From Streptomyces roseirectus (GTDB lineage: Bacteria > Actinomycetota > Actinomycetes > Streptomycetales > Streptomycetaceae), in assembly GCF_014489635.1 (NCBI RefSeq), contig NZ_CP060828.1, positions 9,536,001 to 9,600,000 on the forward strand: a stretch of DNA of 64,000 nt. Direction: 5' to 3'. Below are positions 16,939 through 29,760 of the stretch, piece by piece. Position numbers and translations under genes: made by a program. The notes beneath the pieces were generated by a model that worked only from the letters and a program-made list of their open reading frames with translations, was not told where the DNA came from and did no database searches. Positions within the stretch are counted from its first letter, which is position 1, and every line of letters begins with the position of its first letter.

Positions 16939-17394
16939 ATGCAGTCGTACGACGTCACCGCCGAGACCACCGCCGCGCCCTCGGCCGTCTGGTCCCTGCT
17001 GCTCGACCCGCGCAGTTGGCCGGACTGGACACCGATCGACGCCCTGGACACCGAACAATCGGTCGGCCTGGACGCCGACGGCCGCGACGGCGTCGGCGCG
17101 GTCCGCGCGTTCCGCACCGGAAGGGTCCTCAGCAAGGAGCGGATCACCGCCCTGGAGCCCGAACGCCGGTTCGCCTACGAGGGCGTGGAGAACCCGTACC
17201 TGCGCGACTACCGGGCCGCGATCGAACTGCGAACCCTGCCCGGCGGCGGCACCGGGATCCGCTGGCACGGCACGTTCACCGCGCGCCGGGGGACCCGCCG
17301 GTTCCAGCAGTGGTACCTGCGCCGCTTCATGCGCACCATGGCGACCGGACTCGCCGAACACGCGGTCACACAGACCGGACGCCGCACCCCGTGA
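16939..17394 (+). CDS. SRPBCC-family (START/Bet v 1-like) protein
   Basis: A 151-residue small cytosolic protein with the helix-grip fold pattern. The first strand is QSYDVTAETTAAPSAVWSLL, then WPDWTPIDAL, then an alternating beta-sheet and a long C-terminal helix from FQQWYLRRFM. ATG 16939 has GAGGAAG upstream. Such polyketide cyclase/dehydrase-like proteins bind hydrophobic small molecules. It follows the AraC gene with the repeat site between, so it may be its target. It is convergent with the LLM gene, 12 nt apart. Confidence 0.85.
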   Translation: MQSYDVTAETTAAPSAVWSLLLDPRSWPDWTPIDALDTEQSVGLDADGRDGVGAVRAFRTGRVLSKERITALEPERRFAYEGVENPYLRDYRAAIELRTLPGGGTGIRWHGTFTARRGTRRFQQWYLRRFMRTMATGLAEHAVTQTGRRTP

Positions 17395-17406
17395 CGCTCG
17401 GGCAGA

Positions 17407-18381
17407 TCACGCCCTGTCGGCGGCCAGGACCTCGCGCAGGTCCTGGACGGCGGCGTCGACGCCTTCGGTGATCAGGACACCGGCGGGGTTGAGGACGACC
17501 TCGTCGACGCCGCAATCGCGGTACTCCTGGAGGGCCGACGCGATGTCCGAGGGGGTGCCGACCACGATCCCTCCCGAGCGGAGAAGACGTCGCGCTCCCT
17601 CGGCGGGGTCGTTCGGGTCGACGTCGATTCCGGCGCGCCGGAACATGTCGGCGTAGTGAGGGAGGGTCAGATTCGGCCAGGCTCCGGCGTGGGTGAGGCG
17701 TTCGAGGTTCCGGCCGGGTCGGCTGACGGCGAAGTGGATCATCGTCGCGATGCGGGGCCGTGCACGGCGGGCCTCCTCCGCGCCGGCCCGCAAGGCGGGG
17801 ACAAGGGCCTCGTGGACGTACCGCTGGGGTGTCATCAGGGTGATGGCGACGTCGGCGGCGCGTCCGGCGGTGTGGGCCATCGCGGGGCGCAGTACCCCGA
17901 GGCCGAATTCCACCGGAGGCGCCCGCAGCGGTTCCAGGGAGCCGTGCAGGGTGAAGGCGTCGCTGTCGTGGTGCACTGTCCTGCCTTCCAGGAGCGCACG
18001 GGCCGCGTGGAGGTACGCCTCCATCGCCGAACGGGGACTGCGGTAGGCACTGGGGAGCACCGCCCGCTGGAAAGAGGGGTACGAGGGCCCGTAGCCGGCC
18101 ACGAAGGGCGCCCCGGACAGAGCCGCGAGGGAACGGGCGTGCAGCGCCGCCTCGTAGGGGTGCCTGAGCGGTGTCACCGTCACACCCGTCCCCAGGGAGA
18201 TTCCCGGGAAGCGCACGGTGAGGGCCGCGAGGACCTGGTGGGTCTCCAGGGCTCCCATGGACTGTCCGACCCAGAGCCGGCGGGCATGGCCCTCGTGCAC
18301 GAGGGCGGCGAAGGCGGCGATGCGCCCGAGCCCCTTGGGCTGGACCGGGAAGAGGACGGAGGCGGTCGGCCGGTCGGCCAT
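17407..18381 (-). CDS. LLM-class flavin/F420-dependent oxidoreductase in lanthipeptide operon (LanJ-like candidate)
   Basis: A 324-residue luciferase-like (beta/alpha)8 enzyme. Visible family features are ISLGTGVTVTPLRHPYEAALHA near residue 65, AMAHTAGRAADVAITLMTPQRYV near 170, and the C-terminal GTPSDIASALQEYRDCGVDEVVLNP. ATG 18381 has GGAAG 5 nt upstream; a GTG 15 nt earlier is in frame but lies on that ribosome binding site. It is the third gene of lanL - lanA - LLM, separated from lanA by a 33-nt hairpin. LLM enzymes of the LanJC type are known to reduce dehydroalanine to D-alanine in other lanthipeptides. That role here is inference from position. FMN versus F420 cannot be decided by eye. 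Confidence 0.85.
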   Translation of the reverse strand: MADRPTASVLFPVQPKGLGRIAAFAALVHEGHARRLWVGQSMGALETHQVLAALTVRFPGISLGTGVTVTPLRHPYEAALHARSLAALSGAPFVAGYGPSYPSFQRAVLPSAYRSPRSAMEAYLHAARALLEGRTVHHDSDAFTLHGSLEPLRAPPVEFGLGVLRPAMAHTAGRAADVAITLMTPQRYVHEALVPALRAGAEEARRARPRIATMIHFAVSRPGRNLERLTHAGAWPNLTLPHYADMFRRAGIDVDPNDPAEGARRLLRSGGIVVGTPSDIASALQEYRDCGVDEVVLNPAGVLITEGVDAAVQDLREVLAADRA

Positions 18382-18427
18382 GACGTCTTCCTTCACGCTG
18401 AGGGGGCCGGACGGGGCCGAGCCGGAG

Positions 18428-18460
18428 GCCGTCGTCGCGGCAGGGTGCCGTGACGACGGC
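18428..18460 (-). terminator. attenuator-like hairpin between lanA and the LLM gene
   Basis: A 33-nt element: outer arms GCCGTCGTC/GACGACGGC (9 bp), one mismatch, inner arms CGGCA/TGCCG (5 bp), loop of 3. It lies 21 nt after the lanA stop and 46 nt before the LLM start. No T-run follows, so partial read-through is likely. Confidence 0.7.
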
Positions 18461-18481
18461 CCCGTTGTCCGGGTTCGCGTC

Positions 18482-18592
18482 TCACGCCGTCCAGGAGCAG
18501 GTCCAGGCGCAGCTGATCAGAGCGTCTTCGGACTCTTCGCCCGCTTCCAGGCTCTGCAGGGCGGTCACGTCGAGCGTGGTCTCCTCGTCCAT
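18482..18592 (-). CDS. lanA: class IV lanthipeptide precursor peptide, 36 residues
   Basis: A tiny gene read directly from the reverse strand: ATG at 18592, TGA at 18482-18484. A perfect AGGAGGTGA ribosome binding site overlaps the stop region of lanL, whose stop ends only 6 nt before this ATG. The product is 36 residues. The acidic leader contains LDVTALQSLEAGE (residues 7-19), with the amphipathic LxxLQxLE helix typical of class III/IV leaders. The C-terminal core is ALISCAWTCSWTA (residues 24-36), holding Ser27, Cys28, Thr31, Cys32, Ser33 and Thr35. That allows at most two thioether rings, leaving dehydrated residues as possible substrates for the downstream reductase. Leader cleavage site and ring pattern are unknown. 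Two Cys and two Trp in 11 residues is an unusual core. Confidence 0.88.
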   Translation of the reverse strand: MDEETTLDVTALQSLEAGEESEDALISCAWTCSWTA

Positions 18593-18598
18593 GGGGTC

Positions 18599-21424
18599 TC
18601 ACCTCCTCTCGGGACGTGCTGTGGCTGCCCGCACCGCCGGGTCCTGCTGCGCGGTGCGGAGATTGTGGTCCGGCAGCCACAGGCGTGGACCGCCGTGGAT
18701 CAGCCGGTGGAGGAAGGCCGCGACGCCGGCGAGGCCGGTGCCGAAGTCGGCCGCTGTGCCGGTTCCCGTCTCGTCCACGGGGAGCACCCGGCCGTCGCGC
18801 AGTACATGGCGGACCGCGATGCCCGTGGCGAGGTCCCGCGCCCAGGTCCGGTAACGGTCCTCGCCCGTGGCGTCGGCGAGATCGAGCAGGAACTCGCCGT
18901 CGCCCGACAAGCCGTGGCACTGGGACGGGCCGGTGTGCCAGCGCGATCGGTGGACCGCGACGGCGGCCCGGTGGACCAGGCCGCGGAGCCGGTCGTCGCC
19001 GTCCTCCCGCCACATGCGCAGCAGGAACGTCCCCACGCCGGAGGAGCCGCTGCACCAGTGGGTACGGAGCGCTCCGGGGCCTTCGCCCGCCGGCCAGCAG
19101 GCCGCGCCGTCCAGGTCGCGTGCCACGGACAGCAGCGTGTCGGCCGCTTTCCGCGCGGCCTCGGTGAAGGCGGCTTCGGCGGTCGCCCGCCCGGCGGCGA
19201 GGAGGAAGGTCCCGGCCCCGGCGACGCCGTGGGCGAAGCCGTAGTGGACCAGGCCCGCCAGACGGGACTCGAAGTCCGCGGGGATGGGCCACAGGAGCCG
19301 GCCGCCTCGGTGCTCGGCCGCCTCCACCACGGCTTCCGCGGCCTGCCGCGCCCGGTCGAGGAAGTCCTTGTCGCCGGTGACCTCCCAGAAGCGGAGCTGG
19401 GTCAGTCCGGCACCCGCGACGCCGTGGCAGACGTCCGGGTTGGGCCAGCGCAGGGGGACGGACCGGGCGAGGTCTTCGGCAAGGACGACGGTGTCGCTCT
19501 CGCCGAGTGCCCGGCCGGCGTCGAACAAGGCCCAGGCCGTTCCGGACCGGCCGAAGTACAGACCGGGCAGGATCCGTGGTTCGCGTGCCACGACGCCGCT
19601 GATCCAGTGGACGGTGTCCTGGACGGCATCGAGCAACGCCGGGTCCCGACTTTCCTCGTAGGCCCGTACGAGTGTGCCGAGGACGCCGGCGGCACCGTGC
19701 TGGAGGTTGCACGGATCGCTCGTCCGCCCGGAAGCGGTCGGTTTCCAGAGCCACGTCGCGCTGCCGGGGTCCCTCGTCGCGACCAGGTGGCCGAGGGTGT
19801 CGTCGAGCAGGCGCGCCAGCAGGCGACCGCTGGATTCGGCCGGGTGCGAGGCGCCCGGATCGGGAGGGGCGGACGCCAGGAGGACGTCGGGGGCCCGGGA
19901 GGGCGCGGGGACGGCCGCGACGGTCGCGGTGATCCGCCGTCGCACGTCGTCGATGCCGGGGCGCCGGCCGGGGTCTTCGTGCATCAGCGCCAGGGCGAGA
20001 GGGCCGAAGCGGCGCACAGCGGCGTTGTCCGGGGCGAGCCGGTCGAGCCAGTGGGCCAGGCGCTCCTGCCACGGCCGAGCCGTCGTCGTGTCGTCGGCGG
20101 CGAGTACGGGGTCCGCGCCGCTGATGACGTGGAAGAGGGTGGCGCCCAGGCCGTAGAGATCGGCGGCGGGCTGCGGCGCGGTCCCGATCGGGGGCGCGGC
20201 GACCTGTTCCGGCGCTCCGTAGCCGGGCGTGAATCCCCTGCTCACGGAACGCTCGCCGGGACGGACGAGCAGTTCGAGGTCGATCAGGCGGAGTGCGCCG
20301 TCCTCGGTGACCATGACGTTGGCGGGATGGAGGTCACGCAGGACGAGGCCCCGGTCGTGGACGAGGGCCACGATGCCGGCGAGTTCCGCCGCGATCCGTG
20401 CGACGTCCTCGGGCGTGACTCCCCAGGTCCCGTCCTCGGCCCAGCGCAGGGAGTCCGCCACCCATTGGCGCAGGGTGACGCCACGGATCTCCTCCTGGAC
20501 GAGGAAGAGGTCGCCCTGCTGCTCGAAGAGGTCGACGAACCGCGGGGTGACCCCCGACGGGTCGAACTGCCGGAGCATCTCGGCCTCGTGGCGGCGGGCG
20601 TCGCGGATGTCCCGCCCGAGGGCGGTGGCCTGGGTGTGCGGGCGCCCCTGCTTGACGATCACAAAGGCGCCGGTGGTCAGGTCCCGGGCGCGGTAGACGC
20701 CGCCGACGGAGCTCTGGCGCAGCGACTGCCGTACCTGGTACCGCCCGTTCAGAAGGACCACCGCGCTCGCCGGACCGCTCGCCCGGGATCCCGTGCCTCC
20801 TCCCGGCCGGAACGGGTCGCGTGGTGCCCAGCTCGGCGGGCTGAACCAGGCCCTGCGCTGGTCGAGGACCGGTGTCCCGTCCGGCGCGACGAGCATGGCC
20901 TCGTAACTGCCCTCGTTGCCGAGCACCGGCATGCCGTGGAAGACGCCGTACCGGTAGTGCACCAGGCTTCCCGGCCGGTACGCGCGGTCCGACAGGATGC
21001 CGGGACCGGGCAGGCCCTCGGTCGCCAGGTCGAGTTCCTCGGCCAGCACGCGCAGGGCGGCGTCACCGGCCTCGGGATAGACGGTGATGAACTTGCCGGC
21101 GCTCCCGCGATCGCAGGCGCGGGAGACGAGTTCCGTGACGCGGTCGAGGTCCCTGGCGAACTTGAAGTGACACCGGTGGCGTACGAGAACGTCGGCGGCG
21201 CGGGCGAGAACGAGTGGGGCGGAGAGGGGCGTCGCAGACAGGTGCAGCTTCCATCCCTGCACCCGGAACCGGTGCGCGGGAGGACGGACGTAGCACCAGA
21301 AGTCCCGCGTCTCCCACTGCCAGTCATGTGCCGCGCGGCGCTCCAGCACGGACCGCACGCAGTCCGGCAACAGCCTCTCGTCCGGGTGGCCCCGGTCCCT
21401 CCCCCGCTCACCGCTCCCGTCCAT
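18599..21424 (-). CDS. lanL: class IV-type lanthipeptide synthetase (lyase-kinase-cyclase)
   Basis: A 941-residue trifunctional enzyme that should phosphorylate, eliminate and cyclise Ser/Thr and Cys of the peptide encoded directly downstream. The N-terminal lyase region (about 1-215) includes FRVQGWKLHLSATPLSAP near 54-70 and RHRCHFKFARDL. A Ser/Thr-kinase-like domain (about 226-460) has GGVYRARD, an invariant-type Lys in VIVKQGRP (Lys258), the catalytic-loop motif LRDLHPANVMV (Asp364) and LIDLEL. A LanC-like cyclase occupies about 500-930. Its zinc ligands look complete, HWCSGSSG (Cys791) and QCHGLSG (Cys836, His837), which points to class IV LanL rather than class III LanKC. ATG 21424 has GGAGGGGG upstream. 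It is the first gene of the operon, with its own promoter-like sequence upstream. Confidence 0.9.
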   Translation of the reverse strand: MDGSGERGRDRGHPDERLLPDCVRSVLERRAAHDWQWETRDFWCYVRPPAHRFRVQGWKLHLSATPLSAPLVLARAADVLVRHRCHFKFARDLDRVTELVSRACDRGSAGKFITVYPEAGDAALRVLAEELDLATEGLPGPGILSDRAYRPGSLVHYRYGVFHGMPVLGNEGSYEAMLVAPDGTPVLDQRRAWFSPPSWAPRDPFRPGGGTGSRASGPASAVVLLNGRYQVRQSLRQSSVGGVYRARDLTTGAFVIVKQGRPHTQATALGRDIRDARRHEAEMLRQFDPSGVTPRFVDLFEQQGDLFLVQEEIRGVTLRQWVADSLRWAEDGTWGVTPEDVARIAAELAGIVALVHDRGLVLRDLHPANVMVTEDGALRLIDLELLVRPGERSVSRGFTPGYGAPEQVAAPPIGTAPQPAADLYGLGATLFHVISGADPVLAADDTTTARPWQERLAHWLDRLAPDNAAVRRFGPLALALMHEDPGRRPGIDDVRRRITATVAAVPAPSRAPDVLLASAPPDPGASHPAESSGRLLARLLDDTLGHLVATRDPGSATWLWKPTASGRTSDPCNLQHGAAGVLGTLVRAYEESRDPALLDAVQDTVHWISGVVAREPRILPGLYFGRSGTAWALFDAGRALGESDTVVLAEDLARSVPLRWPNPDVCHGVAGAGLTQLRFWEVTGDKDFLDRARQAAEAVVEAAEHRGGRLLWPIPADFESRLAGLVHYGFAHGVAGAGTFLLAAGRATAEAAFTEAARKAADTLLSVARDLDGAACWPAGEGPGALRTHWCSGSSGVGTFLLRMWREDGDDRLRGLVHRAAVAVHRSRWHTGPSQCHGLSGDGEFLLDLADATGEDRYRTWARDLATGIAVRHVLRDGRVLPVDETGTGTAADFGTGLAGVAAFLHRLIHGGPRLWLPDHNLRTAQQDPAVRAATARPERR

Positions 21425-21473
21425 CCCCGCCCCCTCCGCAGTCCCTCCGAAGTACGCCCCCGAAGACCCTTCG

Positions 21474-21513
21474 AAACTACTCTGCGTAATCGTTTCGTCA
21501 CAATCACACGAAA
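21474..21513 (-). promoter_or_regulatory. lanL promoter candidate with overlapping inverted repeat
   Basis: On the reverse strand TTGTGA (21503-21498), an 18-bp spacer and TAGTTT (21479-21474), about 50 nt before lanL. An inverted repeat, TTTCGT (21493-21498) and ACGAAA (21508-21513), covers the -35 and would suit a regulator. Confidence 0.45.
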
Positions 21514-21576
21514 GGGGGAACCTCGTCGGCGCTTCGGGGCCCCGCGCCCGGCCGGGCGGGACTTCCCGGACCGGCC

Positions 21577-22467
21577 CTAACCCAGGACGGCCGGCCTGAG
21601 CACGTCCTCGCACCACTCGGCGAAACCGGTGGGCGCCGCCTTGGGGGTGCTCGGCTCGCCGGCGCCGTAGAAGCCCTGGGCGTCGATGGCGTCCATCATG
21701 TCGGCGAGCCCGCGCGCCCATGCCTCGCTCGCCCCGAAACGCAGTGCCGTCGCCTTGTAGTCCGCGCTGCTGGTGCCCTGGACGCGCACCGGGCGGCCCA
21801 GTGCCTCGGAGACGACCTGGGCCATGCCTTCGGGGGAGAGGGCGTCGGGTCCGACGAGCGGGACGTCGTCCTGGCCGGTCCAGGTGCCGTCGAGGAGCAG
21901 CCGGGCCGCCGTGGTGGCGATGTCGCGGGTGGCGCAGGTGCGCAGGACGCGGTCGGTCGCCGCCGCCAGGTGGAACACGCCCGCGTCGCGGATCGAGGGG
22001 GCTTGGCCCAGCAGGTTCTCCATCAGGAACGGCGGGCACAGCGCCCGGTAGTGGACGCCGGTGGCCGCGATCGTGTCGTCCATGGCGAGCGACGCCGACA
22101 CCTGCCCGGCGTTCTTCGCCACGTCGCGCCCCAGGGTCGAGACAGCGACGACCCGCTCGACGCCCTGACGCGTGATCGCCTCGCACAGCGTCTCGGTGAA
22201 CCTGCCGAAATGGCCCTCCACGCTGTCGGCCCGGGGGTGCGGGGGCACCAGCCAGAACAGGGTGCCGGCGTCCGCGCACGCCTCCTCCACGACGGCGGAC
22301 TCGGCGTGCGACCCCTGCACGACCTCGACGCGCTCACGCACCTGGGGGGAGAGCCGGGCGGGGTCGCGGACGATCACCCGGATGCCCGCCGTGCGGTCCG
22401 GGGCGGCGAGGAGACGGTCGAGGACCTGCCGGCCGATCTGGCCGGTCGGGGTGGTGACGACGATCAT
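21577..22467 (-). CDS. NmrA-family NAD(P)-binding protein
   Basis: A 296-residue protein. The N-terminal motif MIVVTTPTGQIGRQVLDRLL departs slightly from GxxGxxG but keeps the NmrA pattern. There is no obvious catalytic Tyr/Lys pair. ATG 22467 has GGAG 8 nt upstream; a TTG 12 nt earlier is the alternative. It is divergent from a LysR gene with a palindromic LysR-type box between, so it is probably that regulator's target. It precedes lanL on the same strand with a 152-nt gap holding a separate promoter, so it is not clearly part of the lanthipeptide operon. Confidence 0.85.
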   Translation of the reverse strand: MIVVTTPTGQIGRQVLDRLLAAPDRTAGIRVIVRDPARLSPQVRERVEVVQGSHAESAVVEEACADAGTLFWLVPPHPRADSVEGHFGRFTETLCEAITRQGVERVVAVSTLGRDVAKNAGQVSASLAMDDTIAATGVHYRALCPPFLMENLLGQAPSIRDAGVFHLAAATDRVLRTCATRDIATTAARLLLDGTWTGQDDVPLVGPDALSPEGMAQVVSEALGRPVRVQGTSSADYKATALRFGASEAWARGLADMMDAIDAQGFYGAGEPSTPKAAPTGFAEWCEDVLRPAVLG

Positions 22468-22556
22468 GAACAACTCCAAGCAGAGATGCGGAAGGGGATG
22501 CCGTCGAGCCTGCTGCCCGGCCCGCCCGAACTGAAGGACCGATCCGCTCCCGCTTG

Positions 22557-22571
22557 TTACCCTCAGGGCAA
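22557..22571. promoter_or_regulatory. LysR-type box TTACCCT-C-AGGGCAA
   Basis: A 15-bp imperfect palindrome (one mismatch) of the T-N11-A type, 20 nt before the LysR start and in the shared space with the divergent NmrA gene. Confidence 0.6.
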
Positions 22572-22591
22572 TACCGACCGGAGGGGGGAGC

Positions 22592-23437
22592 GTGGATTCC
22601 CGCCTGCTGCGCTACTTCGTCGCCGTCGCCGAAGAACTCAACTTCGCCCGCGCCGCCGCACGGCTGAACATCTCCCCGCCACCCCTGTCCCGCGCGATCC
22701 GCCAGTTGGAGACGGAACTGGGCGTCACCCTCTTCGAGCGGACCACCCACACCGTGTCGCTCACCGGGGCCGGGACGGTACTCCTGGCCGAGGCCCGGAT
22801 CGCGCTCGACGCCCTGCAGGCCGCCGGACGACGGGCCCAGCGCGCCGCCGCCCCGCAGCCCAAGCTGGTGCTGGCCGTCAAGGCCGACGGCGACGCCGGA
22901 CTCCTGGAGGCGATCCTGGCGCGCTACGCGTCCGAGCCGGCCTCCGTACCCGTCGCCGTCCGGCTGTGCGGCTGGGACGAGCAGCCGCGCCTCCTGCGCC
23001 AGGGGGAAGCCGACGCCGCCCTGGTCCACGAGCCCTTCGACCGCACCGGCCTGGACACCGAGACGCTGGCCGCCGAACCCCGCGTGGTCGCCCTCGCCGC
23101 CACCCACCCCCTCGCCGCCCGGGACCGCCTCACCCTCGCCGACCTCGGCCTGCGCCCGGGGGAGCTGTACCGGTTCATCGACGAGGTCCGCCGCCAGAGC
23201 GGCGACCTCGCCCAACTCCTCGCCCTCGTCGGCCTCGGCCGCCTCACCCCGGTGCTGCCCGCCTCCGTCGCCGCCCGCTACCCGCGCCCGGGAGTCGTCT
23301 ACCGGCCGGTCACGGACGCCCCGCCCGCCGTCCTCGTCATCGCCTGGCCCCAGCAGTCCCGTTCGACGGCCACGGCCGCGCTCGTCCGCGCCGCCGGCTC
23401 CGTGGCCGAGGCGGCGCGGGAGCGGGACGGCACCTGA
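22592..23437 (+). CDS. LysR-family transcriptional regulator
   Basis: A 281-residue regulator. The N-terminal winged helix covers residues 1-60 (LLRYFVAVAEELNFARAAAR, then LNISPPPLSRAIRQLETELG). The co-inducer domain from about 90 is a little short for the family. GTG 22592 is preceded by GGAGGGGGGAG. It is divergent from the NmrA-like gene with a T-N11-A palindrome between, so it probably regulates that gene and itself. The co-inducer is unknown. Confidence 0.92.
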   Translation: MDSRLLRYFVAVAEELNFARAAARLNISPPPLSRAIRQLETELGVTLFERTTHTVSLTGAGTVLLAEARIALDALQAAGRRAQRAAAPQPKLVLAVKADGDAGLLEAILARYASEPASVPVAVRLCGWDEQPRLLRQGEADAALVHEPFDRTGLDTETLAAEPRVVALAATHPLAARDRLTLADLGLRPGELYRFIDEVRRQSGDLAQLLALVGLGRLTPVLPASVAARYPRPGVVYRPVTDAPPAVLVIAWPQQSRSTATAALVRAAGSVAEAARERDGT

Positions 23438-23524
23438 GGCCCGCCCGGACACGTCCGGGTGAACGGGCCCGCCCTGCGGTGTGTCCCCCGCCCGCACCCC
23501 CGCCCGCTTCCTAGGTTGCGGCAG

Positions 23525-24616
23525 GTGACCGACGTGTACCGCATCCTCGAAGAAGCCGCGGCGGCAGCCGAGTTGGACGACAGGGCGGCACTCGCCGCGC
23601 TCCTGGACCGCGCCGACGGCCTCACCGCCGACGACCCGCAGCTCCTCGACCACTTCCGGACCGCGCTGCGCGCCCGCCTGCGCCCGCCCGCCGACGAGGG
23701 CAACCTCTACCTGCGTGCCGACGGCGACGCCCAGATCGACCTGTTCGCCGTCCTCGCACGGCACCTCCCGCTGCTGAGGGCCGCGCACTACGCGAACGAC
23801 AGCCTGCTGCCGTTCCTCCACGGGCACGAGCGGGCGACGGTCCTCGCGCTCGGCATCGGCGAGGGCCGCCAGGAACGCGACCTGCTGGCGCGCGCGAGGC
23901 ACCTGCGCGAGCTGACCGTCGTCGGCGTGGACATCGCCGCAGGCAGCCTCGCCGCCGCCGAGTCGGCGCTGAAGGCGGGCGCCGCGGACACCACCGTCGA
24001 CTTCCACCCCGTCACCGCGGCGACCGAGGACCTGGACGACAACTTCTGGCAGACCCTGGCCCGGCTGCCCCGCCCCCTCCTGGTCACCGCCTCCTTCGCC
24101 CTGCACCACCTGCGGGACACCCCCGACGGCCACGACACCCGCGCCGCCCTCTTCCACCGCCTGCGCGCCCAGGACCCCGCCGCCGTCGCCCTGTGCGAAC
24201 CCGACGCCGACCACCACCGCTCCCCGCTGCCCGCACGCCTGGCGAGCGCCCGCCACCACTACGGCACCCTGTTCGCCGCGATCGACACCACCGCCGCCAC
24301 CCACGCCGAGAAAACCGCGATGAAACGCTTCTTCGGCCGGGAGATCCACAACGTGATCGGCGCCGGCGACGCGGACCGCTACGAACGCCACGAACCGCCC
24401 CACGCCTGGACCGCCCGCCTGACCGCGGCCGGCTTCCGCCCCCTCACCCCCGCCCGCCCCGACCCCCTCCCCGAACCCGGCTTCACCGCCACCGCCCACC
24501 CCACCCACCTCACCCTGGCCTTCAAGGACGTCCCCCTCGCCGCGGTGATCGTCGCCGTCCCCGACCGACCGCCCCACCCGAACCGACGGAGCGTCAGAAC
24601 CCCGCCGCCTGGGTAA
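23525..24616 (+). CDS. bacterial GRAS-domain protein (Rossmann methyltransferase-like)
   Basis: A 363-residue protein. The middle part has a class I methyltransferase-like Rossmann core: ATVLALGIGEGRQERDLL near residue 100, then VVGVDIAAGSLAAAESAL. The C-terminal half carries landmarks of the GRAS family known from plant SCARECROW/DELLA proteins: FFGREIHNVIGAGDADRYER near 263-282, matching plant FGREIxNVVAxEGxxRxER, followed by HAWTARLTAAGFRPL, matching WxxRxxxAGF. GTG 23525 is the likely start; an ATG 66 nt earlier is possible. Bacterial GRAS proteins are thought to be small-molecule methyltransferases or ligand binders. The function here is unknown. It lies 61 nt before the trypco2 gene. 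Confidence 0.75.
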   Translation: MTDVYRILEEAAAAAELDDRAALAALLDRADGLTADDPQLLDHFRTALRARLRPPADEGNLYLRADGDAQIDLFAVLARHLPLLRAAHYANDSLLPFLHGHERATVLALGIGEGRQERDLLARARHLRELTVVGVDIAAGSLAAAESALKAGAADTTVDFHPVTAATEDLDDNFWQTLARLPRPLLVTASFALHHLRDTPDGHDTRAALFHRLRAQDPAAVALCEPDADHHRSPLPARLASARHHYGTLFAAIDTTAATHAEKTAMKRFFGREIHNVIGAGDADRYERHEPPHAWTARLTAAGFRPLTPARPDPLPEPGFTATAHPTHLTLAFKDVPLAAVIVAVPDRPPHPNRRSVRTPPPG

Positions 24617-24677: not shown

Positions 24678-25010
24678 ATGGGGCGGGATGAACAACGGCT
24701 GACGCTGACCGAGGCGATCGAGTCGCTGCGCACGGACCTGGAGGCGGCGCAGCGCCAAGGGGCGGGCCGGACACTGGGCTTCAGCGTCCAGGGCATCAGC
24801 GTCGAACTCGACGTCGAAGCCGAACGCACCAGCGACGCGGGGGGCGGCGTCTCCTGGTTCGTCGCCGCCAAGGCGGGCCGCTCCCGCACCCGGCGCACCG
24901 CCACCCGCCTCGTCCTCACCCTGAAACCGCGCGGCACCCTGACCGTCACCGACCCCGGCGGCCTCTCGCGCGGCACCCCGCCACCGCACACCGGCGACAC
25001 GGCACGGTGA
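24678..25010 (+). CDS. trypco2 (trypsin-co-occurring domain 2) protein
   Basis: A 110-residue small protein whose whole length fits the trypco2 domain: an N-terminal helix LTEAIESLRTDLEAAQRQGA, then beta strands LGFSVQGISVELDVEAER and SWFVAAKAG, ending LVLTLKP. ATG 24678 has GGAGGGGGA upstream. Its stop is 4 nt before the protease gene, fitting the domain's definition as a partner of trypsin-like proteases in NTPase-dependent conflict systems. It probably acts as adaptor or regulator of that protease; this is inference from family context. Confidence 0.85.
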   Translation: MGRDEQRLTLTEAIESLRTDLEAAQRQGAGRTLGFSVQGISVELDVEAERTSDAGGGVSWFVAAKAGRSRTRRTATRLVLTLKPRGTLTVTDPGGLSRGTPPPHTGDTAR

Positions 25011-25014
25011 CGGC

Positions 25015-27186
25015 ATGACCGGCACCCTCCCGCCCCCGTCACCGGACGGCGGCACCGCAGACGAGGACCACCCGGCCCCCACCACCCCGGACCGGCTCGT
25101 CGAGATCAGCGTCCGCGACGCCCACGGCCGGCAACTCGGCCACGGCTCCGGCTGGCTCCTCGACGACGACCTGGTCCTCACCGCAGCCCACGTCCCGGTT
25201 CCCGCCGAAGGGGACCCGCACGCCGTCGTCGAGGTCCGCCGCGGCAGCGCCCCGCCGTACGGGATCTGGCACCGCTGCGCCCTCGTGTGGAGCGGCCTCG
25301 CCGACGGCGCCGGCCTGGACGCCGCCCTCCTCGTGGTGACCGGCGCCGGCTGGCAGCCCCCCGACCCCCGCCACCGGCCCCGGCTCGACGGCGGCGGCAC
25401 CAGCATCGTCGACTTCGAGGTCTTCGGCTTCCCCGCCTTCCACCACACCGACCGCACCGCCTACGACGTCCACCAGTGCGGCGGCCGGCTGCGCCCCGCC
25501 AACCTGGGCCGCTCCGAGATCCGTGTGATCGAGGTCGCCGCCGAGGACGCCCCCGCGACCCCGGAGGACTGGCACGGCGTCTCCGGCGCCGCCGTCCTGA
25601 CCGACGACCAGCACACCCTCGTCGCCGTCGTGATCGGCGCCGACCTGGGCAGCCCCCGCCGCCTCAGGGTGCTGCCCGTCACCCGCCTCCTGCACGACGC
25701 CGGATTCCGCCGCGAGCGGCGCGAGCACCGCTACGGCGAACCCCACAACCGGCGCACCGTCCTCGCCGCCGTCCTGGCCCGGCTGACCCGCGCCGAACCC
25801 CTCGCCTCCACCGCCGCCTGCCGCGCCCTCGCGGACCGGCTGCTCCCCGGGGCCGCCGCCGACCCCGAGATGGCCGGCCTCGGCGGCCACGACCTCCTCA
25901 CCGCGCTCGTCGACCGCCTCGCCACCCGCGCCGGCGGCCTCACGGACCTCGCCGCCGACTACGCCCGCACCTGCGAGGACCAGCCCACCGCCGGTGAACT
26001 CGCCTTCCTCGCCGAGGAGTTCCACGCCCTCGACCTCCTCGGCGTCCCCCTCTGGTGCGGCCTGCGCGAAGCCCTGCGCCGCCTGGTCCACGCCGACCTG
26101 GGCGGCGTCCCCGTCCCCGCGCTGCACGCCCGCGCCGTCGAAGGCACCGACCACATCCCGCTGCCCGCGCACTGCGACGACCCCTGGAAAGCCTTCGTCC
26201 ACCTGGTGTGCGCCCGCGAGGACAGCCCCCGGCTCCCCGCCGCCCTGCGCTTCCTGGAACTCCTCGCCAGCGCCGTCGGCGGCACCACCTCCGCCACCGT
26301 ACGGGCCTGCAACCGCAGCTGGGCCCGCCGCCTCGACCTCGCCCGCGACACCCCGCGCGACGACGACGGCCCCGGCTACGCCCGCCAGGTCGACGAACTG
26401 CGCTCCCGGCTCGTCAGCACCCCCGTGCAGCGCACCACCTCCGCCCGCCTGCTGGTCGAACTGATCCCCGACCCGAACAGCGACCCCGACGGCTGGACGG
26501 TCTCGTTCTGCTTCCAGTGCCGCCCCCACACCGGCACCTGGCAGCGGCTGCCGATGCCGCTCGCCGAACGCGTCATCCACCTGAGCCGGCTGTTCGACCG
26601 CGTCGAGACGGCCTGCCGCACCCTCCACGACGTCCACGGCGTCCCCCACGACCGCATCGAGGTCGAGTACATCCTGCCCCTCGACCTCATCGACCACCCC
26701 GACAAACTGATCGGCCACGGCGCCCTGCCCCCGACCGCCGCCACCTTCCCGCTCGTCGTGCACAGCCTCGACCGCCTCCACAACAGCACCTGGCGCGCGG
26801 TGTGGCAGGACCAGTGGCGGCGCACCCGGCCCCACACCACGGGCCGCCTGCTCTTCCAGATCACCGCCCTCGACCACGCCGACCGCACCACCGCCGAACC
26901 CGTCGCCGGAGTCCTCCTCACCGAGAAACCCGGCTCCGCCACCGGCCGCCACGAGGTCAGCACCGCCCTGCGGCACGGCGTCCCGCTCGTCATGTGGCGC
27001 CACGACCCGCGCGCCCAGCCCGACTTCTCCGCCCTGTCCAGACGCATCATGACCGAGGGCCGCCTCGACCCGCGCCACCTGCGCCAGGACGACGGCGCCG
27101 GACAGGACGTGTGGAACCGCTACTTCGTCGTCATCTTCGACACCCCCGACAACCTGCCCGGCCTCGTCTACGGCGAGGCGTCGTGA
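25015..27186 (+). CDS. trypsin-like serine protease with VMAP-C-like effector-associated region
   Basis: A 723-residue cytosolic protein with no signal peptide. The N-terminal trypsin-fold domain (about 25-230) has a readable triad: His59 in LVLTAAHV, Asp102 in GAGLDAALLVV, Ser190 in DWHGVSGAAVL. The middle (about 245-420) is helical, resembling the effector-associated/VMAP middle regions. The C-terminal about 260 residues (from RLLVELIPDPN, through RIEVEYILPLDLI, to GVLLTEKPGSATG) matches the VMAP-C type seen in vWA-MoxR-associated conflict proteins. It starts 4 nt after trypco2 and ends 24 nt before the NB-ARC-TPR gene, one operon. It likely serves as a latent protease triggered by the NTPase partner; the target is unknown. 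Confidence 0.85.
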   Translation: MTGTLPPPSPDGGTADEDHPAPTTPDRLVEISVRDAHGRQLGHGSGWLLDDDLVLTAAHVPVPAEGDPHAVVEVRRGSAPPYGIWHRCALVWSGLADGAGLDAALLVVTGAGWQPPDPRHRPRLDGGGTSIVDFEVFGFPAFHHTDRTAYDVHQCGGRLRPANLGRSEIRVIEVAAEDAPATPEDWHGVSGAAVLTDDQHTLVAVVIGADLGSPRRLRVLPVTRLLHDAGFRRERREHRYGEPHNRRTVLAAVLARLTRAEPLASTAACRALADRLLPGAAADPEMAGLGGHDLLTALVDRLATRAGGLTDLAADYARTCEDQPTAGELAFLAEEFHALDLLGVPLWCGLREALRRLVHADLGGVPVPALHARAVEGTDHIPLPAHCDDPWKAFVHLVCAREDSPRLPAALRFLELLASAVGGTTSATVRACNRSWARRLDLARDTPRDDDGPGYARQVDELRSRLVSTPVQRTTSARLLVELIPDPNSDPDGWTVSFCFQCRPHTGTWQRLPMPLAERVIHLSRLFDRVETACRTLHDVHGVPHDRIEVEYILPLDLIDHPDKLIGHGALPPTAATFPLVVHSLDRLHNSTWRAVWQDQWRRTRPHTTGRLLFQITALDHADRTTAEPVAGVLLTEKPGSATGRHEVSTALRHGVPLVMWRHDPRAQPDFSALSRRIMTEGRLDPRHLRQDDGAGQDVWNRYFVVIFDTPDNLPGLVYGEAS

Positions 27187-27210
27187 ACGCGCGCCGATGG
27201 AGGAGGACCC

Positions 27211-29760
27211 ATGGCGGCGAGTGACCGGTCGCAGCGCGCCCCGCACGGCTCCTCCCCGGCGGTCTGGGAGAACGTGCCCCCGCGCAACCCCAACTTCATC
27301 GGCCGCGAGGCACTGCTCGCCGACCTCGCCGCCCGCCTCACCGACAGCCGCAGCCCCACCGCCGTCCTCCCCGAGGCGATGTACGGACTCGGCGGCATCG
27401 GCAAGTCCCAGCTCGCCATCGAGTACGTGTACCGGCACCAGGCCGACTACGACCTCGTCTGCTGGATCCCCAGCGAACGCACCCCCGGCATCGTCAACAC
27501 CCTCTCCCACTTAGCCGGCCGCCTCGGCGTCGGCGAGAGCGGCGACGCCGCCGCCACCGTCTCCCAGGCCCTCGACGCGCTGCGCCGCGGCATCCCCTAC
27601 ACGCGCTGGCTGCTCGTCTTCGACAACGCGGAGAACGCCCAGACCCTCGCCCCGTTCCTGCCCAATGCCCGCCACGGCGCCGTCCTCATCACTTCCCGCA
27701 ACCCCCAGTGGGAGGACATCGCAGGCTGCGTCGAGGTCGACGTGTTCTCCCGCGCCGAGAGCGTCGCCCTCCTCAACAAACGCGGCCCCGCCCTCACCCC
27801 CGAGGACGCCGACCTCCTCGCCGAGGCCCTGGGCGACCTGCCGCTCGCCATCGAACAGGCCGCCGCCTGGCGCGCCCAGACCGGCATGACCGCACGGGAA
27901 TACCTGCGCCTCTTCGACGAGAAACGCAGCGACCTCCTCTTCGAAGGCGCCCCCAACCTCTACCAGGAGTCCGTCGCCACCGCCTGGAACGTCTCCCTCG
28001 ACCGCATCGAGGAGACCAACCCCGAGGCCCTGCACCTCCTCCAGGTCTGCGCCTACCTCGCGCCCGAACCCATCCCGCGCTCCCTGTTCTCCGGCGCCCA
28101 CCGCGGCGCCATCACCCGCGAACTCGACGTCGCCCTCGCCGACCCCATGCGCCTGGGCCGCGCCGTCCGCGAGATCAAACGCTTCTCCCTGGCCCGTATC
28201 GACCCCCGCAACAACTCCCTCCAGATGCACCGCCTCGTCCAGCTCGTCCTCCTCCAGCGGATGACCCCGCACGAGCAGGAACGGATGCGCCTGGGCGCCC
28301 AGTCCCTGCTGGCCTCCGCCGACCCCCGCGACCCCGAGTCCAACGCCCAGTGGTACCGCTACTCCGAGCTGTACCCGCACGTCGTCGCCTCCGACGCCAT
28401 CCACTCCGCCGACCCCTGGGTGCGTGACCTCGTCCACAACACCGCCCGCTACCTCCAGCGGTTCGGCGACCACGACAGCGCCCTCGACTTCACCCGCGAG
28501 GCCCACCACGCCGCCACCGAACTCTTCGGCGCCGAGGACGAGAAGACCCTCCAACTCGCCTTCTGGCTCGGCTGGATCCTCTTCAGCATGGGCCGCTACC
28601 AGGAGGCCGCCGACATCAACCGGGCCACCCTCGACGTCCACGAACGCGCCCTGCCGCCCGGCCCCACCCGCGCCGCCCAGACCAACGAGAGCCACCTCGA
28701 CGCCATCGGCGCCGTCGCCGCCGACCTCCGTGTCAAGGGCGACTTCACGCAGGCCCTGGAACTGAGCCGGCGTGTCTTCGAGACGGCCACCGAGGCGTTC
28801 GGCGAGGACGACGCCTGCACCCTCAACGCCGCCCACAACCTCGGCGTCGCCCTGCGCCTCGTCGGTCGCTTCCAGGAGGCGTACGAACTCGACCGCACCA
28901 CCTGGGAACTGAAACAGACCCTGCTCGGCGCCGAACACGAACAGACCCTCCTCACCCGCGTCGGCCTCACCATCGACGAGCGTGAACTCGGCCTCTACCG
29001 GCACGCCCGCAACCGCCAGGAGGAGGTCGTCAGCCAGTACCTGCGCCACCTGCGCGAGGACAACGCGGCCGTCCTGCACGCCCGCCGCGTCCTGGCCGTC
29101 GCCCGCCGCAAGGCCGGCGACCACGAGGCCGCCCTCGAACTGTCCGAACAGGTCCTCGGCGTCATGGAGGAACGCTTCGGCCCCACCCACCCCGACACCA
29201 TCGCCGCCACCCTCGGCCTCTCCGTCGACCTGCGCTACACCGGCCGCCTGGAACGCGCCCGCGAACTCGCCGAGGCGTCCCTCGCCCACTACCGGCGCAT
29301 CTTCGGCGACCACCACCCCCACACCGTCTCCGCCCAGGCCAACCTCGCGATCACCTCCCGCCTGGACGACCTGTGCGAGACCGCCCACACCCTCGACCGC
29401 GCCGCCTACACGACCCTCCTGGCCGCCCTCGGCGAACGCCACCCCCTCACCCTGGTCGTCGCCACCAACCTCGCCAGCGACCTCGCCGCCCTCGGCCGCC
29501 ACGAGGAAGCCCTCGCCCTCGGCGCCCGCACCCACGCCCTGTCCGCTGGCCTCCTCGGCGAGGCCCACCCCTCCACCCTCAGCCTCGCCGCCAACCAGGC
29601 CCTCGACCTCACCGCCCTCGGCCGCCACGACGAGGCCGCCGCCCTCCACGACCAGGTCGTGCACGAGATGCGCGACCGCCTCGGCCCCGACCACCCCGCG
29701 ACCACGGCCCTCACCGACCGGGACCGCGCCAACTGCTTCATCGACCCGCTGCCCCTGTGA
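27211..29760 (+). CDS. fxsT: NB-ARC/TPR protein of the FxSxx-COOH system type
   Basis: An 849-residue STAND-type NTPase. The opening VPPRNPNFIGREALLADLA, then the P-loop GLGGIGKSQLA (residues 59-69), VCWIPSER, Walker B-like WLLVFDNAE and sensor VLITSRNPQW form the NB-ARC module (about 20-330). From about 430 to the end run at least eight TPR-like repeats (for example LAFWLGWILFSMGRYQEAAD, then HPDTIAATLGLSVDLRYTGR). This architecture and opening match the tetratricopeptide protein named for the FxSxx-COOH system. ATG 27211 has GGAGGAGGA upstream. Codon 101 is TTA, rare in this DNA and in Streptomyces read only by the bldA tRNA, so expression may be tied to development. It probably senses a signal and drives oligomerisation with the upstream protease. 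Confidence 0.88.
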   Translation: MAASDRSQRAPHGSSPAVWENVPPRNPNFIGREALLADLAARLTDSRSPTAVLPEAMYGLGGIGKSQLAIEYVYRHQADYDLVCWIPSERTPGIVNTLSHLAGRLGVGESGDAAATVSQALDALRRGIPYTRWLLVFDNAENAQTLAPFLPNARHGAVLITSRNPQWEDIAGCVEVDVFSRAESVALLNKRGPALTPEDADLLAEALGDLPLAIEQAAAWRAQTGMTAREYLRLFDEKRSDLLFEGAPNLYQESVATAWNVSLDRIEETNPEALHLLQVCAYLAPEPIPRSLFSGAHRGAITRELDVALADPMRLGRAVREIKRFSLARIDPRNNSLQMHRLVQLVLLQRMTPHEQERMRLGAQSLLASADPRDPESNAQWYRYSELYPHVVASDAIHSADPWVRDLVHNTARYLQRFGDHDSALDFTREAHHAATELFGAEDEKTLQLAFWLGWILFSMGRYQEAADINRATLDVHERALPPGPTRAAQTNESHLDAIGAVAADLRVKGDFTQALELSRRVFETATEAFGEDDACTLNAAHNLGVALRLVGRFQEAYELDRTTWELKQTLLGAEHEQTLLTRVGLTIDERELGLYRHARNRQEEVVSQYLRHLREDNAAVLHARRVLAVARRKAGDHEAALELSEQVLGVMEERFGPTHPDTIAATLGLSVDLRYTGRLERARELAEASLAHYRRIFGDHHPHTVSAQANLAITSRLDDLCETAHTLDRAAYTTLLAALGERHPLTLVVATNLASDLAALGRHEEALALGARTHALSAGLLGEAHPSTLSLAANQALDLTALGRHDEAAALHDQVVHEMRDRLGPDHPATTALTDRDRANCFIDPLPL

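Follow-up and report, generated by a model that had tools for sequence, protein, structure and literature searches.

The stretch of DNA analysed here (hereafter the window) comprises 64,000 nucleotides (nt) of the Streptomyces roseirectus genome and sits on a single 9.95-Mb contig. On its minus strand three genes follow one another: lanL, encoding a lanthionine synthetase, lanA, encoding a putative lanthipeptide precursor of 36 amino acids (aa), and lanJ, encoding a luciferase-like monooxygenase (LLM; Table 1). The lanA open reading frame (ORF) runs from an ATG start to a TGA stop, and its ATG lies exactly 6 nt beyond the lanL stop codon (TGA, 18599-18601). Its ribosome site includes AGGAGG at 18602-18607, 9 nt ahead of the ATG. 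As the lanL stop codon forms the last three bases of AGGAGGTGA, the lanA ribosome site overlaps the end of lanL. A preliminary sequence-only reading of the window had claimed a 36-codon ORF with a ribosome site at this position, as well as LanL and a luciferase-like protein as its neighbours, and all of this was borne out by direct reading of the sequence and by matches to NF038150 and PF00296, respectively.

Table 1. Features of the lanL-lanA-lanJ locus (window coordinates)
Feature	Coordinates	Strand	Basis
lanL, class IV lanthionine synthetase, 941 aa (lyase, kinase, LanC-like cyclase)	18599..21424	minus	NF038150, Pfam, conservation
Ribosome site of lanA fused with lanL stop codon, AGGAGGTGA	18599..18607	minus	direct reading
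lanA, predicted class IV lanthipeptide precursor, 36 aa, MDEETTLDVTALQSLEAGEESEDALISCAWTCSWTA	18482..18592	minus	ORF reading, homologues, alignment
Leader motif LDVTALQSLE	18545..18574	minus	alignment
Predicted core SCAWTCSWTA, residues 27-36	18485..18514	minus	alignment and core survey (inferred)
G+C-rich strong hairpin between lanA and lanJ	18425..18463	minus	z-score; no T-run after
lanJ, predicted LanJC-type reductase (PF00296)	17407..18396	minus	family scans, protein search, tree, model

The synthetase scored 1078.3 bits against the class IV model NF038150 (cut-off 650) and stayed under the cut-off of the class III model, and RamC_N, Pkinase and LANC_like domains were recognised by Pfam. 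It is the sole LanL over the cut-off in its genome. Among 72 aligned LanLs, K258, D364 and D382, which we take to be the kinase lysine and aspartates, are kept, as are C791, C836 and H837 of the cyclase WC and CHG motifs, presumably the zinc residues. Retention of the zinc site in LanL has been described (PMC2843593). These features support an intact class IV synthetase, and the 36-aa ORF is likewise supported as its conserved partner by the survey of relatives that follows.

The 36-aa peptide matched no family in NCBIfam or Pfam. A phmmer search of 394 genomes of the same family gave matches in seven, its own genome included, and in all six others a LanL was encoded on the fetched stretch of 10-20 kb, which places the ORF beyond chance. 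Their precursors all have a D/E-V-x-x-L-Q-x-L leader, and CTWTCSWTS is one example of their cores; across 12 aligned precursors, leader residues D8, L12, Q13 and L15 are invariant. A profile of these 12 matched 24 of 392 genomes of the genus, with the weaker matches probably due in part to chance. Twenty-four of 30 profile-match loci were inspected, and LanL was found within the stretch in ten of them and an LLM in two, i.e. the window and Streptomyces genome G626. Small precursors with this leader are, on the present count, normal near LanL, since a motif scan near 83 LanL loci detected 76 distinct same-strand precursor-like ORFs in 66 loci (17 of the 83 had no candidate precursor). These ORFs range from 27 to 73 aa (median 43), and seven of them, the window ORF counted, have 36 aa or less. 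The description of lanA as unusually short therefore fails. It was also called hidden; the ORF does lie between the two genes, but there is nothing special in this, as 86% of class IV precursors are reported as not annotated (PMC7268733).

Short ORFs are common in G+C-rich DNA (54 of at least 20 aa overlap one 6-kb stretch of the window), so lanA might in principle be an untranslated chance ORF. With homologues in several genomes that have the same leader, core and ribosome site and lie near LanL, we regard this as highly improbable. The ORF is very probably a lanthipeptide precursor, because relatives with the same leader and Cys-x-x-Thr cores occur near other LanLs and because the whole unit recurs in G626. 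That it is the substrate of the adjacent LanL, as first proposed from the sequence, is supported by the kept leader, the core motif and its position in differing surroundings. The core, which had appeared unfamiliar, falls into a broad class IV set with Cys-x-x-Thr modules. Across a searched literature of 5.39 million papers, no main text contains any of five peptide strings taken from this set.

In G626 (locus L123), the full unit lanL-lanA-LLM is present in the same order and strand, with identities to the window of 65% for LanL, 72% for LanA (residues 8-36) and 70% for the LLM, and lanJ likewise adjoins lanA. In the window, lanJ follows lanA directly on the same strand, at a distance of 85 nt to its ORF start and 100 nt to its likely start, an ATG at 18381 (324 aa) that agrees with the aligned start in G626 and with the length of protein P0001. 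The hairpin between lanA and lanJ occurs at the same place in both loci (z-scores -3.14 in the window and -4.08 in L123). Scans for sigma-70 promoters and terminators gave no site, with none terminator-like at the hairpin, and an Rfam scan of 17300-22700 gave no match. Eight other window genes queried against G626 yielded only a weak LysR match (27%) several kb off; NmrA-like, LysR and SRPBCC/AraC/TetR genes were accordingly rejected as pathway members.

The LLM belongs to PF00296 (88.6 bits, cut-off 27.9). A search of 5.8 billion proteins scored 7,996 candidates and gave 435 matches, of which 120 were listed; 20 of these 120 bear the NCBI name 'F420-dependent peptide dehydroalanine reductase LxmJ', with 51-56% identity and 95-98% query coverage. 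A genome-level search gave 83 LLM matches in 74 of 392 genomes, and LanL was looked for around 30 of the loci plus two more, as well as at all members of two further match sets (22 and 26, mostly about 1.5 kb on each side). Of the loci checked, the window and G626 are the only two with LanL next to the LLM; further loci, other genera included, have class V-like or daptide neighbours and no LanL. When 19 loci, mostly the best-scoring among the 82 other matches, were typed, 14 contained LxmK (class V kinase), one a LanB-like protein and one a daptide recognition protein, and three were left without assignment. The daptide-linked one of these 19 belongs to the window's own genome: it is a second LLM, 42% identical (L142 7374-9408, at about 6.23 Mb of contig G000:C1), that adjoins a daptide recognition protein (NF041823), a neighbour seen also at several other LLM relatives.

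In a 45-row tree, the LLMs of the window and G626 are sisters (support 100/100) inside an 18-row group (100/98) that includes eight rows of class V context, with other class V rows, LxmJ-named ones included, outside this group. Twenty-one rows came from the window and the loci and 24 from the 120 listed proteins, the context being known for few of the latter. This places the class IV pair within class V enzymes, provided that the root lies outside the 18-row group. With an AlphaFold model of the LLM (predicted local distance difference test, pLDDT, 96) as query, the top 15 entries by Z are F420-dependent enzymes (Z 31.7 to 28.0), flavin enzymes appearing from 26.8 down, and the genome has the F420 synthesis gene cofD, the only F420 gene searched for. 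Membership of the LLM protein in the lanthipeptide dehydroalanine-reductase group (LanJC, LxmJ-like) is supported by sequence. The LLM 'oxidoreductase' of the sequence-only reading is present, but its likeness to a LanJC-type reductase and its probable membership in the pathway had been missed.

The core of LanA allows the target of this enzyme to be proposed. In G626 the core reads SCAWTCPGTA, so that Ser27, Cys28, Ala29, Trp30, Thr31, Cys32, Thr35 and Ala36 are kept and Ser33 and Trp34 are not. In a set of 24 CxxT-type precursors, every one of the 72 Cys residues has Ser or Thr at +3; over 2,000 trials with shuffled cores, the count averaged 24.7 and peaked at 36. As the 24 were chosen for that pattern, 72/72 characterises the set and is no proof of how far the pattern extends. 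In five of the 24, neither Ser nor Thr occurs anywhere ahead of the first Cys, hence any ring made by that Cys must be Cys-first, and three of four assigned rings of venezuelin are Cys-first as well (PMC2843593). By this logic, rings Cys28-Thr31 and Cys32-Thr35 are predicted for the window, with Ser27 as the predicted reduction site. Ser stands directly before the first Cys in just two of the 76 precursor-like ORFs, exactly the two that are reductase-linked (window and G626); if independent, this coincidence would have a chance of 1 in 2,850, but the two operons are kin, which reduces it to one event.

Since both Ser27 and Ser33 are possible donors, and since overlapping rings are known in class IV, venezuelin being an example (PMC2843593), the same pathway could also form other rings: a lanthionine between dehydroalanine (Dha) 27 and Cys32, with Cys28 joined to dehydrobutyrine (Dhb) 35 or Dhb31 and LanJ reducing Dha33. 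Ser33 is, however, Pro in G626 and cannot be a shared LanJ site, and the six two-Cys precursors without lanJ among the 24 CxxT-type ones have D, D, V, P, P or E before the first Cys, never Ser, while keeping Thr at +3 of both Cys. We therefore hold this arrangement to be rather unlikely. A class III labionin precursor was also considered and ruled out: the labionin core motif is Ser-x2-Ser-x(2-5)-Cys (PMC8960859), LanA has Ser at 14, 21, 27 and 33 and Cys at 28 and 32 with no Ser-x2-Ser, and LanL scores as class IV.

Taken together, we consider it likely that lanL-lanA-lanJ is a compact three-gene class IV lanthipeptide operon with a predicted LanJC, the product of which would carry two methyllanthionine rings and a D-alanine from Ser27. 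LanL would bind the D-V-T-A-L-Q leader, its kinase would phosphorylate core Ser and Thr residues, and its lyase would eliminate the phosphate to leave Dha and Dhb. Its zinc cyclase would then add Cys28 onto Dhb31 and Cys32 onto Dhb35, giving two consecutive four-residue methyllanthionines, each with Cys ahead of its partner. LanJ most likely turns one LanA serine into D-alanine; with F420H2, it would reduce the Ser27-derived Dha just ahead of the first ring. A target derived from Ser, with both Thr spent on rings, fits the activity reported for LxmJ, which acts on Dha and cannot reduce Dhb (PMC8068269). The hairpin between lanA and lanJ may allow an excess of lanA over lanJ, and leader removal and release would be left to an unlinked protease and exporter.

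Several observations weigh against this reading. The perfect +3 pattern comes from the pattern-chosen set, and in the unselected count only 20 of 76 precursor-like ORFs have Ser or Thr at +3 of every Cys; with the two lanJ-linked operons being relatives, the link between Ser27 and lanJ is effectively a single event. The LLM fails NCBIfam cut-offs (107.6 bits for the closest subfamily, TIGR03564, with a cut-off of 234.25), although a class V-linked LLM is also under this cut-off (134.0 bits), so that the criterion does not separate LanJC from other LLMs. Both class IV members carry the same three substitutions (W187L, H242N, L252F) at positions that 57 of the 58 other LLMs in the alignment conserve, which may mean a changed substrate or a changed function. 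An LLM at LanJC level is missing from all 81 other LanL loci; in four of them, a match of 26-27% lies over 6 kb off. Downstream of LanL, 78 of these loci extend for 1.5 kb or more and three for less; upstream, six extend for under 1.5 kb. Scans of 17 window proteins (a subset of the ORFs) gave no match to a transporter or protease family; most characterised class III and IV clusters are described as lacking protease genes (PMC8960859). Finally, the closest LanL (71%), that of Streptomyces minutiscleroticus (L018), has a precursor with a similar leader and a quite different core and no lanJ, which means that this LanL clade can do without lanJ. As L018 joins the window before G626 in a FastTree of LanLs (support 0.998), lanJ was either lost in L018 or moved. 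The L018 precursor itself (L018 12794-12934) has a leader much like that of the window and an unrelated core, CVDAMCPILTLGSDSCEVAAE.

From some of these points one could argue that lanL-lanA is a real class IV pathway and that the LLM is no peptide reductase, having an unrelated redox role or being a bystander. Such an explanation would account for the absence of an LLM from the other LanL loci, L018 included, for the missed NCBIfam cut-offs, for the gap of 85 nt (100 nt to the likely ATG) with its hairpin, and for the three shared substitutions at positions conserved in more than 90% of the aligned family. It sits poorly with the conserved gene order and strand in G626, where searches did not recover the other neighbours, with the largely class V-like clusters of the LLM relatives, among which the tree nests the LLM, and with the Ser before the first Cys that tracks the LLM gene. 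We judge it unlikely. Given the same three-gene order in G626, the hairpin in both loci and the Ser-before-Cys in exactly these two, the LLM gene is probably part of the pathway.

Elsewhere in the window, a 385-aa protein with a GRAS domain (PF03514, E 4.8e-25) and weak methyltransferase matches is encoded at 23459-24616 on the plus strand; the GRAS family is best known from plant regulators. It is followed on the same strand (24678-29760) by a row of a Trypco2 protein, a VMAP-M0/VMAP-C protein and an NB-ARC plus TPR protein, which we take to resemble a vWA-MoxR-associated conflict-type module.

The chemistry of the operon is predicted from sequence; what is at hand is a new combination of known enzyme families that comes with a precise chemical prediction. 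We lean towards the view that a class IV pathway captured an F420H2-dependent LanJC from class V, which would place D-alanine beside two Cys-first methyllanthionine rings and give the first secondary modification and D-amino acid of class IV, encoded by three clustered genes. Class IV has been called the least studied lanthipeptide class (PMC10676316), and according to Walker et al. 2020 (PMC7268733) no secondary modification was known in it. No report of a class IV pathway with LanJC was found in the literature searched, in which subscription papers were thinly covered, making this weak evidence of absence. If the reductase works as predicted, the operon would be a three-gene system joining LanL with a D-amino-acid installer, which would point to movement of tailoring genes from one lanthipeptide class to another. 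The formation of Cys-first rings by LanL could be studied in a simple setting with the Cys-x-x-Thr set, whose members have 2 to 4 modules.

Among the closest counterparts of the window operon are the CxxT-core precursors of genomes G058, G125, G192 and G343 and of Kutzneria sp. 744 (L046), which have the leader motif, Cys-x-x-Ser/Thr modules and a nearby LanL in common with the window. They differ in having no detected lanJ and no Ser ahead of the first Cys, and contain 2 to 4 modules, sometimes in tandem precursor genes. In Kutzneria sp. 744, six same-strand precursor genes lie in tandem beside one LanL (L046 14483-15348), and three of the six precursors carry four modules. Venezuelin (VenA/VenL), streptocollin and globisporin (SgbA/SgbL) likewise combine a LanL synthetase with a small precursor, but the window operon, unlike these, has a LanJC-type reductase gene. 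Venezuelin, the only one of the three with which the peptides were compared, also has Cys-first rings, as predicted for LanA, and is reported to have no clustered protease; its four overlapping rings contrast with two tandem Cys-x-x-Thr modules in the window.

As for the reductase, LxmJ of lexapeptide and the other LanJC enzymes of class V, such as Cao12 of cacaoidin, RosJ of rosin and SprOR of pristinin, belong to PF00296 like the LLM of the window, which is about 55% identical to NCBI-named LxmJ and is nested among class V LLMs. Its best NCBIfam match is in the F420 MSMEG_4879 family, as was reported for LxmJ and Cao12 (PMC8068269). The name LanJC was proposed for the BrtJ-type enzyme of birimositide, a luciferase-like protein proposed to convert Dha to D-alanine (PMC7268733), and the later work consulted on such enzymes concerns class V (PMC8068269, PMC12291118, PMC7794033). 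BrtJ, likened here by description and not by sequence, acts in a class II LanM pathway and LxmJ is linked to class V enzymes, whereas lanJ of the window is linked to LanL, with three otherwise conserved positions changed in the class IV copies.
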